From contig OX638316.1 in assembly GCA_951812525.1 (NCBI GenBank), positions 1,956,630 through 2,020,629 of the forward strand: a stretch of 64,000 nucleotides of DNA, in the 5' to 3' direction. This stretch comes from an uncultured Poribacteria bacterium. Its GTDB lineage: Bacteria; Poribacteria; WGA-4E; WGA-3G. The notes beneath the pieces were generated by a model. It searched no databases and was not told where the DNA came from. It saw nothing but the letters and a program-made list of their open reading frames with translations. A program made the translations under genes and the position numbers. Positions 16,240-24,833 of this stretch are shown one piece after another (position 1 is the stretch's first letter; every line of letters starts with the position of its first letter).

Positions 16240-17751
16240 CTATATCGCCTCTAGAACGCTGATAAGGTTCGTAACAGATTCTCTGAACATATCAATAGCG
16301 AAGTTGGGCCAAATACCGAGCACAATCGTTAGGATTCCGAGCGGTGCCAACGTCAGGATTTCGCGTCCATTGATTTCGGGGAGTGCTTCATATTTCGGAT
16401 TGAGTGTCCCTAAGAAAACACGTTGGAGCGTCCAGAGGAAATAGGCTGCACCAACGACAATGCCTATCGTGGACAAGATAGTTAGCATTTTGAATTTGTC
16501 GTAAGCACCGAGTAAGGAGAGTGCTTCTCCGACGAATCCACTCAAGCCGGGTAGTCCCAAGGATGCCATGAATGCGAGCGTGGTAATGCCGGTATAGATT
16601 GGCATTTTTGCGCCGAGACCACCAAATCCATTGATCTCACGATGGTGTGCTCTGTCGTAGAGAACGCCTACGAGCAGGAAGAGCATCCCACTGATGACAC
16701 CGTGGTTGAACATCTGGAGAAGCGCACCGGTGACGCCCTCTGTATTTCGAGCGGCGAGTCCCAAGATAACGAATCCCATGTGTCCAATACTGGAGTAAGC
16801 GACCAGCTTCTTGAAATCGGTTTGTGCCAACGCGCAGAAAGAGCCGTAGACGATATTAATGAAACCGAGTATAGCTAAGCTATTGCCCCAAGTGCCAGTT
16901 CCGTTGCAGAAAAAGTCCATGCCTTGTGGAAACATTGCCATGTTAACCCGTACCAGTCCGTATGTTCCCATTTTTAGCAGGATACCTGCAAGAATAACGC
17001 TGATGGCAGTCGGTGCTTCAACGTGTGCGTCGGGGAGCCAAGTATGGAACGGGAAGATTGGCACCTTAACCGCGAATCCGATAAAGAAACCGAGGAAGAC
17101 CCAGATCTGGAAGTTTAGATCGTTGAGTGCATGTCCTTCTGTAGCGGCTAAAGTAATAAGGGTCGGGATGTCAAATGTCCGCGCGCCGGATGCACCGCTG
17201 TTGAGATAGACTGCAATCATCGCAACCAGCATCAGCACACTCCCGAAGAGGGTGTAGAGAAAGAACTTAATCGCAGCGTATTCACGCCGCGGTCCGCCCC
17301 ATACACCGATGAGGAAATACATCGGCAATAGTGTGAGTTCAAAAAAGACGTAAAAGAGGAACAGATCCAGAGCGGCGAAGAAGCCCAGCATCCCAGTCTC
17401 AAGCAGTAGGAACAGTGCCATGTACGCCTTGATGCCTTTTTCAATGTTGCGCCACGAGGCGATGACACAGATAGGACCTAAGAGGGCGGTGAGGAGCAGA
17501 AGTGTTACACTGAGACCGTCAATACCGATGTGATATTGGATGTTAAACGCCTCAATCCAAGGAACATTAACAACGTACTGCGTTCCTGCAATCGAACGGT
17601 CGTAAGATACGAATAGGGCAACTGCGAGTGCGAGTGGAATGAGTGTAAAAAGAAGTGCGACGCGTTTAACCAGTTCCTCCGACTCGCGCGGCAGCAATAA
17701 AACAGTAATCATCCCAAGCAACGGGATAAAAATCATTAGCGACAGTAACAT
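16240..17751 (-). CDS. nuoM: NADH-quinone oxidoreductase subunit M
   Basis: A 503-residue antiporter-like subunit. Diagnostic segments include FFELTLLPMYFLIGVWGG (the key Glu in helix 5), KFFLYTLFGSVLMLVAM, KVPIFPFHTWLPDAHVEAPT, VAYSSIGHMGFVILGL and FNHGVISGMLFLLVGVLYDR. These match NuoM rather than NuoL or NuoN. It forms a proton-translocating channel in the complex I membrane arm. Its start has AAGGAGG eleven bases upstream, within the gap after orf58. Confidence 0.95.
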   Translation of the reverse strand: MLLSLMIFIPLLGMITVLLLPRESEELVKRVALLFTLIPLALAVALFVSYDRSIAGTQYVVNVPWIEAFNIQYHIGIDGLSVTLLLLTALLGPICVIASWRNIEKGIKAYMALFLLLETGMLGFFAALDLFLFYVFFELTLLPMYFLIGVWGGPRREYAAIKFFLYTLFGSVLMLVAMIAVYLNSGASGARTFDIPTLITLAATEGHALNDLNFQIWVFLGFFIGFAVKVPIFPFHTWLPDAHVEAPTAISVILAGILLKMGTYGLVRVNMAMFPQGMDFFCNGTGTWGNSLAILGFINIVYGSFCALAQTDFKKLVAYSSIGHMGFVILGLAARNTEGVTGALLQMFNHGVISGMLFLLVGVLYDRAHHREINGFGGLGAKMPIYTGITTLAFMASLGLPGLSGFVGEALSLLGAYDKFKMLTILSTIGIVVGAAYFLWTLQRVFLGTLNPKYEALPEINGREILTLAPLGILTIVLGIWPNFAIDMFRESVTNLISVLEAI

Positions 17752-17775
17752 CTAGTGGGGATCCTCCTTATCCCG

Positions 17776-17952
17776 TTATCGGGAAATCAAATAGACTACA
17801 TACAGAAGTGCTGGGAACATGATTGGAGCGAGTACAAGCAAGATCGTTGCTCTCTTGCGCCGCGTTTCGAGGTTCGTATGACGCACGAAAAGCCAACCGA
17901 TAGCAAACCCAAACAGCGGTCCAAAAAACGGGAGCAGTTTAAACAATTCCAT
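17776..17952 (-). CDS. 58-residue two-helix membrane protein between nuoL and nuoM
   Basis: An intact small ORF lies exactly between nuoL and nuoM. An ATG at 17952 runs to TAA at 17776, and AAGGATGG (overlapping the nuoL stop) acts as a likely ribosome-binding site. The product starts MELFKLLPFFGPLFGFAIGW, has a basic loop (RHTNLETRRKRA) and a second hydrophobic helix ending VYLISR. It therefore has two transmembrane helices with a positively charged hairpin. The nuoM ribosome-binding site begins eight bases after its stop, so it looks translated as part of the operon. No family was recognised. It may be an accessory or assembly subunit, which is inference. Confidence 0.7.
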   Translation of the reverse strand: MELFKLLPFFGPLFGFAIGWLFVRHTNLETRRKRATILLVLAPIMFPALLYVVYLISR

Positions 17953-17965
17953 GACAATCCCATCC

Positions 17966-20194
17966 TTACAAAGCCCGGAAAATTAAGATTAACAACACAA
18001 TTCCCGCCAGCACGACGAAAAGGTAAGTCTGAATCGCACCAGTCTGAATTCGACGGACTCTACCACCGATTGACCACGTGACTTGAGCAACCTGATTGAC
18101 AAGACCATCAACAATGCGGTTATCAAAAACCCCAACGAAGACAGCGAGGAAGTCTCGCGTCACCTTACCAACACCGTTGACGATACCGTCAACAATAGTC
18201 CCGTCAAATTGGGCGAAGAGCCGCGATTTCCATACTGTCAAAGCGACTAAGACCCCATCGTAAAACTCGTCGAAGTAGTATTTGTGCCACAGCACGTTAT
18301 AGATTGGTCGGAAAGTCGTTGCCACAGATGCCGCGGAGAGCGATCGTTTATGGTAGAACAGCCATGAGAGGAGTATGCCTAATCCTGCAACAATGATGGA
18401 TAACACCATCGCAATAGTGTGTGCTGGTCCGTGGTGTCCATGATGTGCGTCATCTGCGTGTGCGCCGTGTGTATCGTGTCCGGCTTCTTCCGCTGCAACG
18501 GCTTCGGAAATCCCGAAGAGTGAAAATGGAAGTCCTGCCTCACCGACTTTGCTATCAGGTGAGACATAGGCATGTTCCGGTGCATGAAGATGTGCTTGTT
18601 CTGGCGGCGTAACATAGTCTGCATTGAACCAGAGCGTATTGACGACTGGAAAACTCAGGACAGCCAAAACGATGAGCGGTACAGTCATCGTCTTAGGGGA
18701 TTCGTGTGCCATGTCGTGCATCTCTTGATTCCGCGGTTCACCGAAAAAGGTCATGAAGATGAGGCGGAACATATAGAACGCCGTAATGCCTGCGGCAAAG
18801 AGTGCGATGCCAAACAAGAGATAGTGATGTACGGAGTTCCATTCCATTGCGCGCCCCAACACACCACCTAAGATTGCGTCCTTACTCCAGAAGCCAGAGA
18901 AAATAAACGGAACGCCAGAGATAGAGAGCGTCGCGATGAGCATCGTCAGGAAAGTAATCGGCATCTTGTGACGCAATCCACCCATGTTACGCATATCTTG
19001 GTCTGGTGGAATCTCGGAGCCGATCACATGTTCTGAGGCGTGATTTCCGTCGTGTTCATGTGCGTGTGCGTCGTCGTCGCCGTGCCCGTGTTCGTCATCA
19101 TGTGCATGCGCATGCATTGCGTGGAAGGCGTGGATAACACTACCGGAACCGAGGAAGAGCAACGCTTTGAAGAAAGCGTGTGTTGTGAGGTGAAAGAGTC
19201 CAGCCACATAACTGCCAGCCCCGATCCCCAGCATCATATATCCAAGTTGGCTGACCGTAGAGTATGCCAAAACCCGCTTAATGTCAAAACGGACGATAGC
19301 GATAGTCGCCGCAACGATTGCGGTGATACCACCGACGTAGGCGATTACGAGCGATGAGGTTTCTGTCAAAATTGGGAACATTCGAGCCGTGAGATAGACA
19401 CCAGCGGCAACCATCGTCGCAGCGTGGATTAGGGCACTGACGGGTGTCGGACCTTCCATCGCATCGGGCAACCATGTATGTAGCGGAACCTGTGCGGATT
19501 TACCGACAGCACCACAGAAAATGAGGACACCCGCAACAGAAAGCCATACCATATCACCTGTGTTTAATTGGGATGCGGCTTGCGCGAAAATACCGCCTTC
19601 TCCGTAGAGCGAAAGCGTATCGAATTTGGTGAAGAGCATCATCATGCCGATGAACATACCGACATCGCCGACGCGCGTCGTCAAGAACGCTTTTTTACAG
19701 GCGTTCGCAGCCGAATCCTTTTCAAACCAGAATCCGATAAGCAGGTAGGAGCAGAGACCGACGAGTTCCCAACCGATGTAGATGCCGAGTAGGTTATCCG
19801 ACACGACCAAGAAAAGCATCGAAAACGAGAAGAGCGAGAGGAAGGCGAAAAAGCGTGGATACCTTGGATCTCCGTGCATGTAGCCCATAGAGAAGATATG
19901 GACAAGGCTGCTGACGAGTGTGACGACAATCAGCATGATCGCAGTGACGCTGTCCAAGTAAAAGCCCATCGAGAAAGTGACACTCCCGAGCGAGAGCCAC
20001 TTAAGGGTATGTGGTTCTGGATCGGGGACCACCTCTTGCAAAAGCAAGAGCGAACAGCCGAGTGCAATGAGCATTGCGGCTGTGGATAGATAGTCCTGTC
20101 GCGGGAAACTCCGTTTCGCTAAGCCCAAAAGCCCAAAAATTGCGAAAGCAGCAAGTGGGCAGAGCAAGATGAGACTGATTAACGGGATAACCAT
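17966..20194 (-). CDS. nuoL: NADH-quinone oxidoreductase subunit L with His-rich insertions
   Basis: A 742-residue subunit; NuoL is usually 600-680. The core is intact: IYIGWELVGLCSYLLIGFW, TTRVGDVGMFIG, SAQVPLHTWLPDAMEGPTPVSALIHAATMV, LAYSTVSQLGYMMLG, and a C-terminal transverse-helix region. Two histidine/aspartate-rich segments are inserted. One lies around residues 355-390, in the loop after GSVIHA and before RNMGGLRHKMP, with about 12 His. The other lies roughly at residues 560-585, with about 8 His. These look like metal-binding loops. NuoL is the distal proton pump of complex I. A 114-base non-coding gap with repeats separates it from nuoK. Confidence 0.95.
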   Translation of the reverse strand: MVIPLISLILLCPLAAFAIFGLLGLAKRSFPRQDYLSTAAMLIALGCSLLLLQEVVPDPEPHTLKWLSLGSVTFSMGFYLDSVTAIMLIVVTLVSSLVHIFSMGYMHGDPRYPRFFAFLSLFSFSMLFLVVSDNLLGIYIGWELVGLCSYLLIGFWFEKDSAANACKKAFLTTRVGDVGMFIGMMMLFTKFDTLSLYGEGGIFAQAASQLNTGDMVWLSVAGVLIFCGAVGKSAQVPLHTWLPDAMEGPTPVSALIHAATMVAAGVYLTARMFPILTETSSLVIAYVGGITAIVAATIAIVRFDIKRVLAYSTVSQLGYMMLGIGAGSYVAGLFHLTTHAFFKALLFLGSGSVIHAFHAMHAHAHDDEHGHGDDDAHAHEHDGNHASEHVIGSEIPPDQDMRNMGGLRHKMPITFLTMLIATLSISGVPFIFSGFWSKDAILGGVLGRAMEWNSVHHYLLFGIALFAAGITAFYMFRLIFMTFFGEPRNQEMHDMAHESPKTMTVPLIVLAVLSFPVVNTLWFNADYVTPPEQAHLHAPEHAYVSPDSKVGEAGLPFSLFGISEAVAAEEAGHDTHGAHADDAHHGHHGPAHTIAMVLSIIVAGLGILLSWLFYHKRSLSAASVATTFRPIYNVLWHKYYFDEFYDGVLVALTVWKSRLFAQFDGTIVDGIVNGVGKVTRDFLAVFVGVFDNRIVDGLVNQVAQVTWSIGGRVRRIQTGAIQTYLFVVLAGIVLLILIFRAL

Positions 20195-24532: not shown

Positions 24533-24833
24533 AATGCGGGTTTTTCAAAACGCAAAGTTGTTATCAATACTTATCTATTTGCCCTATATATGATACCATT
24601 TTTGTCGTCCAATGTCAAATCTTAACCTGTTTTCTCAGAGAGGATTTGTGTTGCAATTTCGGATGTCGCTTTTATAGAAAAATGTTACACCAGTGTAACA
24701 TTTTTGTTTAGCCTTCACGTCTAACAAACCCGCACGCCACCTGAGTTCCGAAGCATTTTAAGTTTTAATGTTCCACTACGAAAAAAGTCAAAAGTGTAAC
24801 ACCACAGAAACGAAGATTCAATATCCGTGCTAC
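24533..24833. other. Non-coding gap between nuoC and nuoD
   Basis: This is a 301-base gap within an otherwise compact operon. It contains the 28-base palindrome at 24678-24705, a half-site-like AAGTGTAACACC near 24793, and AT-rich sequence near nuoD (24550-24610) that could hold an internal promoter for nuoD onward. No ORF was credited. Confidence 0.5.
24678..24705. promoter_or_regulatory. Perfect 13-bp inverted repeat (operator or attenuator)
   Basis: AAAAATGTTACAC (24678-24690), a 2-base centre CA, and GTGTAACATTTTT (24693-24705). The core reads TGTTACAC-2-GTGTAACA. A T-tract follows on either strand, so a bidirectional terminator/attenuator and a repressor operator are both possible. Confidence 0.6.

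Follow-up and report, generated by a model that had tools for sequence, protein, structure and literature searches.

Does the short open reading frame between nuoL and nuoM in this uncultured Poribacteria bacterium encode a protein, where did such a protein come from, and does it belong to complex I? The window, which is the whole 64,000-nucleotide stretch of DNA analysed here, lies in a genome assembled as a single contig of 5.06 Mb. A sequence-only reading of the window had pointed to the ORF as a possible accessory or assembly subunit of this type of complex I. We compared the nuoL-nuoM junctions of 59 genomes of the family and 15 more distant genomes, most of them metagenome-assembled, and analysed the sequence, ancestry and selection of the small protein.

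The small ORF and its surroundings

The small ORF is located on the minus strand (17952..17776), a strand that the sequence-only reading had not given, starts with ATG and has 58 codons followed by TAA. It is flanked by nuoL upstream (17966..20194, minus strand; 742 aa, NCBIfam TIGR01974) and nuoM downstream (16240..17751, minus strand; 503 aa, NCBIfam TIGR01972). Only 13 bp separate the nuoL stop from its ATG, and the 24 bp between its TAA and the nuoM ATG contain AAGGAGG (17763..17769, minus strand), the Shine-Dalgarno sequence of nuoM. The intact frame with a ribosome-binding site overlapping the nuoL stop, as described earlier, was confirmed: the Shine-Dalgarno-like AAGGATGG (17967-17960, minus strand) runs over the nuoL TAA (17966-17968), and the GGATG within it was invariant in 10 genomes. 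The 58-aa product is MELFKLLPFFGPLFGFAIGWLFVRHTNLETRRKRATILLVLAPIMFPALLYVVYLISR, which includes the stretch ATILLVLAPIMFPALLYVVYLISR. Two hydrophobic stretches flank a basic loop, RHTNLETRRKR (residues 24-34; 17851..17883, minus strand), and AlphaFold2 with the family alignment predicted helices at residues 3-23 and 28-57 with a mean pLDDT of 78, so the expected pair of hydrophobic helices joined by a basic loop was also borne out.

An intact small ORF of 58-59 codons was found at the nuoL-nuoM junction in 10 of the 38 genomes of the window's genus, and one genome of a second genus (G038) had a 54-codon ORF at the same junction with 44-46% identity. All 11 genomes having the full-length segment carried the ORF between nuoL and nuoM, with conserved start, length and ribosome-binding site, which supported the earlier claim of a small membrane-protein gene in the nuo operon. 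Searches of Pfam and NCBIfam with the small protein matched no family, and the only PHROGs hit was a weak one (E 0.049), to a family without assigned function. The PDB sequence search gave nothing significant and matched no small subunit of complex I. The fold search of the PDB with the structure model also gave no match, which is to be expected because the model is a bare hairpin.

By ORF reading, the nuo cluster of the window comprises nuoA, B, C, D, H, I, J, K, L, M and N, and no NuoEFG was seen beside it. A second NuoM (49% identical) is found a few kb from a second NuoF (G000:C1:61542-70278 and G000:C1:2120076), and the other NuoF is about 120 kb from the window's nuo cluster; the gap upstream of the second NuoM contains no such small ORF. 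Elsewhere in the cluster, the gap between nuoD and nuoC (approximately 24534-24833, minus strand) is 300 bp without evident gene and contains the palindrome AAAAATGTTACACTGGTGTAACATTTTT; it looks like an operator or internal promoter region. NuoL has a histidine/aspartate-rich insertion, HAFHAMHAHAHDDEHGHGDDDAHAHEHDGNHASEH, after residue ~357 (approximately 19010-19140, minus strand), and a second His-rich stretch further on, HDTHGAHADDAHHGHHGPAH, both resembling metal-binding loops.

Similarity to the N-terminus of NuoM

A profile of the 11 small proteins was searched against 85 whole genomes of the phylum. The family members came first, followed by N-termini of the adjacent NuoM from about 40 genomes (E 3e-7 to 3e-4), and everything beyond these two groups had E of 0.002 or worse; the second NuoM, NuoL and NuoN gave no match below E 0.01. 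Among the frames of the window, the profile matched NuoM with E 3e-4, and the next best frame had E 0.39. Against 74 NuoM N-termini the profile scored 25.1 bits on average. When its columns were shuffled inside the first helix, the loop and the second helix, the score fell to -0.5 +/- 2.2 bits, and none of 1000 shuffles scored as high as the real order. The copy of G038 could be aligned to NuoM from Met to Met without gap over 54 residues, 17 of them identical. The score of this alignment was 62 (63 against the window's NuoM), and the next best of 2201 offsets over seven Nuo membrane subunits scored 18; none of 100,000 shuffles was as good. In addition, the G038 copy and NuoM both lack two loop residues that are found in the window's genus.

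Similarity of this kind could also arise by convergence of two membrane hairpins instead of descent. The identity to NuoM is only about 31-36%, the window's copy, taken by itself, gives no significant match to NuoM without gaps, and the leader of the small ORF is no closer to the nuoM leader than the leaders of other genes are, with G038 as a marginal exception; all of this would suit convergence. It is nevertheless very unlikely, considering that the profile is specific to the neighbouring gene across the 85 genomes, that shuffles preserving the helix-loop-helix layout score far lower, and that the G038 copy aligns gaplessly, start to start.

Judging from these alignments, the small protein is in all likelihood derived from NuoM as a diverged copy of its N-terminal hairpin (TM1-2), with the first 54 codons of nuoM (17590-17751, minus strand) as the probable paralogous source. 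We read this most naturally as the outcome of a partial tandem duplication at the 5' end of nuoM that predates the split of the two genera and was followed by fast divergence; about 54 codons covering TM helices 1 and 2, perhaps together with the nuoM leader, would have been copied start to start before the copy diverged. The small protein shows homology to the N-terminus of NuoM / ND4 (Proton_antipo_M) and has neither a Pfam Proton_antipo_M domain nor the TM4-8 / TM9-13 core. With 58 aa and no Pfam match, it is therefore to be regarded as a NuoM-derived fragment and not as a NuoM. The origin as a copy of nuoM is the point that the sequence-only reading had missed, and in the literature searched we found no description of a small protein derived from NuoM, nor of nuo genes from Poribacteria.

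Selection, loss and possible exchange at the junction

Codon analysis of the 7 genomes of the window's clade with a one-ratio model gave an omega of 0.42 (LRT 15.2, p = 1e-4) for the small ORF, and the same DNA read in frames +1/+2 gave 1.16. None of 60 neutral simulations reached 0.42. The last 240 codons of nuoL and the first 66 codons of nuoM had omega values of 0.077 and 0.10, which means that selection on the small protein in this clade was approximately 4-5 times weaker than on NuoL and NuoM. All 11 full-length copies were free of stops and frameshifts; for the ten copies from the window's genus, neutral evolution predicts 4.4 stops (P = 0.012). In three scattered genomes (G027, G032 and G011; L048, L051 and L061), by contrast, omega was 1.8-1.9 with the frame still open, and a two-ratio model was preferred over one ratio (LRT 16.9, p = 4e-5). 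The dN/dS check proposed earlier thus favoured the gene in the window's clade and gave no value below 1 in these three genomes. In the window's clade the protein is under genuine, if moderate, purifying selection; in G027, G032 and G011 selection is either relaxed or of another kind, for example diversifying.

We also considered whether the segment is a conserved RNA or DNA element whose frame is open by chance. Its synonymous divergence is somewhat below that of nuoL, which would fit such an element, but the purifying selection is specific to one frame and the product has homology to NuoM at the protein level. An RNA element was tried and rejected, with no match in the Rfam search and almost no covariation. 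A non-coding explanation is accordingly extremely improbable, and we are highly confident that the small ORF is a real protein-coding gene.

The small ORF was absent from 28 of the 38 genomes of the genus. Fourteen of these 28 junctions had a near-identical gap of 36 bp, 11 had gaps of 108-421 bp with repeats, and the remaining ones were single cases with 252 bp (G002), about 54 bp (G013) and 16 bp (G012). No ORF was found at the junction in a third and a fourth genus or in the remainder of the order, neither the 36-bp gaps nor the third genus gave any signal of remnants, and no other copies of the 214-bp segment occur elsewhere in any genome of the phylum. Both nuoL and nuoM were intact around the ORF-less junctions; therefore, the small protein is dispensable and cannot be essential. 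The equivalent ORF looked for in related operons is hence found at this position in 10 of the genus's 38 genomes plus G038, and missing from the other 28, including the sister genome G012.

G012 sits within the ORF-bearing clade of seven, has no ORF, and its nuoL and nuoM are intact. The sequence TAAGGA occurs as a direct repeat on both sides of the small ORF (17963..17968 and 17765..17770, minus strand; 198 bp apart), and a deletion between the two copies predicts exactly the 16-bp junction of G012. G019 retains the first codons of the small ORF and G041 the last codons, and each of these remnants beat 300 of 300 shuffles. Because of this precise deletion and the two remnants, losses in at least three lineages are near-certain. 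A tree built from about 1 kb of nuoL and nuoM DNA on either side requires at least 6 changes of state for the small ORF.

These losses bear on the main rival explanation, according to which the small ORF is a relic of the partial duplication, without molecular partner, weakly maintained and on its way out, and its open frame carries ribosomes from nuoL to nuoM by translational coupling and so avoids polarity. The stop of the small ORF just 5' of the nuoM ribosome-binding site would fit coupling; the repeated loss, including the precise deletion in G012, and the omega not below 1 behind an open frame in three genomes would fit decay. But many relatives cope with a gap of 100-420 bp that is non-coding, and selection against amino-acid replacements in the window's clade is confined to the ORF frame. 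Furthermore, the small protein family has an invariant Trp20 and a conserved TRRK loop, both of which are missing from NuoM. The relic explanation fits the relaxed genomes better and the window's clade worse than an accessory hairpin does, and overall we consider it rather unlikely.

The repeat at many of the ORF-less junctions is a dispersed one (GTAGCCCGTAACGAAGTGGAGG ... CACTTCATTACTCCGCAAGGTATAATTAAAA, with inverted GAAGTGG/CCACTTC), and it occupies the gap up to the nuoM ATG in the junctions L039, L040, L041, L043, L044, L045, L049, L050, L064, L065 and L067, where its own GCAAGG substitutes for the usual nuoM ribosome-binding site. Some relatives have many matches to it, up to 38 in one genome; the window's genome has no match, and G016, G019 and G020 contain hardly any copy other than the one at the junction. 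This near-restriction to the junction in three genomes and the patchy occurrence of the ORF across the tree suggest that the junction alleles (ORF, 36-bp gap and repeat) were exchanged between species by recombination, although direct evidence of recombination in the flanks is weak. A history of losses only was not adopted, given the 36-bp gap common to many genomes and the near-unique junction repeat in G016, G019 and G020.

Possible role and comparison with known systems

Bacterial complex I has 14 core subunits. The small ORF has a conserved place in the nuo operon, as an accessory subunit would, and is not kept in close relatives with the same complex (absent in 28 of 38). Because of this absence, which includes G012, and because omega is not below 1 in three genomes, the small protein does not qualify as a general subunit of this complex I. 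The part of the earlier proposal that stands is that the nuo operon contains a true gene for a small membrane protein. Taking all results together, we think it fairly probable that this protein exists, was copied start to start from about 54 codons of nuoM, has since diverged, and acts as an optional accessory or assembly hairpin.

As a copy of NuoM TM1-2, the small protein could plausibly have its place in or near the membrane arm. Its translation would take place on the nuo mRNA, between those of NuoL and NuoM, and the product would insert into the membrane as a hairpin in the orientation of NuoM TM1-2, with both ends periplasmic and the basic loop cytoplasmic. NuoM has 14 helices, and its N-terminus should therefore lie on the P-side if its C-terminus does. 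The C-terminus of Nqo13 (NuoM) was placed on the P-side by GFP fusion (PMC11496545). Applying the positive-inside rule to the basic loop, we infer that the small protein is compatible with this orientation as well. The hairpin might then bind to the distal membrane arm (NuoM/NuoL) and adopt the packing of TM1-2 of NuoM itself. In antiporter-like subunits the proton-conducting repeats are TM4-8 and TM9-13 (PMC8357420, PMC11496545); the small protein has none of these helices and therefore cannot pump.

By analogy with NdhP and NdhQ, which are described below, the small protein may have a functional role in complex I, located at the distal membrane arm as an optional hairpin that is either accessory or helps assembly; we propose this tentatively. 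Alternatively, the hairpin may regulate the assembly or amount of complex I: by mimicking the N-terminus of NuoM it would compete with nascent NuoM for NuoL or an insertase, and so tune the distal module in a microprotein-like manner. The small protein is a copy of exactly the hairpin of NuoM that is inserted first and is encoded directly before NuoM, but the same facts fit an ordinary accessory subunit, and regulation seems unlikely to us. Returning to the accessory hairpin, a somewhat more tentative view is that partial duplication of its own pump subunit NuoM has given complex I a lineage-specific optional membrane subunit, encoded between NuoL and NuoM: a free hairpin of TM1-2 would dock on the distal arm, modulate its assembly or stability, and be exchanged and lost among close sponge-associated bacteria.

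The small protein of these sponge-associated Poribacteria looks like an optional extra part of a respiratory machine, which is kept by selection in one species group and lost in close relatives. This bears on how complex I acquires extra subunits: a recently arisen protein of two helices, copied from a core subunit and naturally deleted in close relatives, would directly exemplify the birth of a supernumerary subunit. It is also a warning that a small ORF conserved in an operon of one clade may be a dispensable duplicate of a neighbouring gene.

Several known systems resemble the small protein in part. CydX, KdpF and AcrZ are tiny hydrophobic proteins that associate with a large membrane enzyme or transporter (PMC4325964, PMC7267776). 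Unlike the small protein, they are single helices in the well-studied cases. We know of no protein of this type that is a copy of a subunit of its complex. NdhL is a small two-helix membrane subunit of NDH-1 (PMC7021789). It shares with the small protein the two helices and the setting in a complex I relative, but is located at NdhA and the quinone cavity. As far as we know, its origin is unrelated. NdhP and NdhQ are tiny helices at the NdhD1/NdhF1 module (equivalent to NuoM/NuoL) of cyanobacterial NDH-1L, and NdhP is required for NDH-1L formation (PMC7021789, PMC4131877). They, too, are membrane proteins of very small size in a relative of complex I, and the placement proposed above for the product of the small ORF follows this analogy; in contrast to it, they have one helix each and are demonstrated subunits. 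To our knowledge, neither is a derivative of NdhD. Comparison with Pfam and PDB sequences showed no sequence relation of the small protein to NdhP, NdhQ or NdhL. Compared with NuoM / Nqo13 / ND4, the small protein corresponds to 54-58 of about 503 residues, lacks both five-helix proton-path repeats and has a dN/dS about 4 times higher, but it shares with TM1-2 of that subunit homology over 54 residues from start to start, the same helix-loop-helix layout and the adjoining gene.
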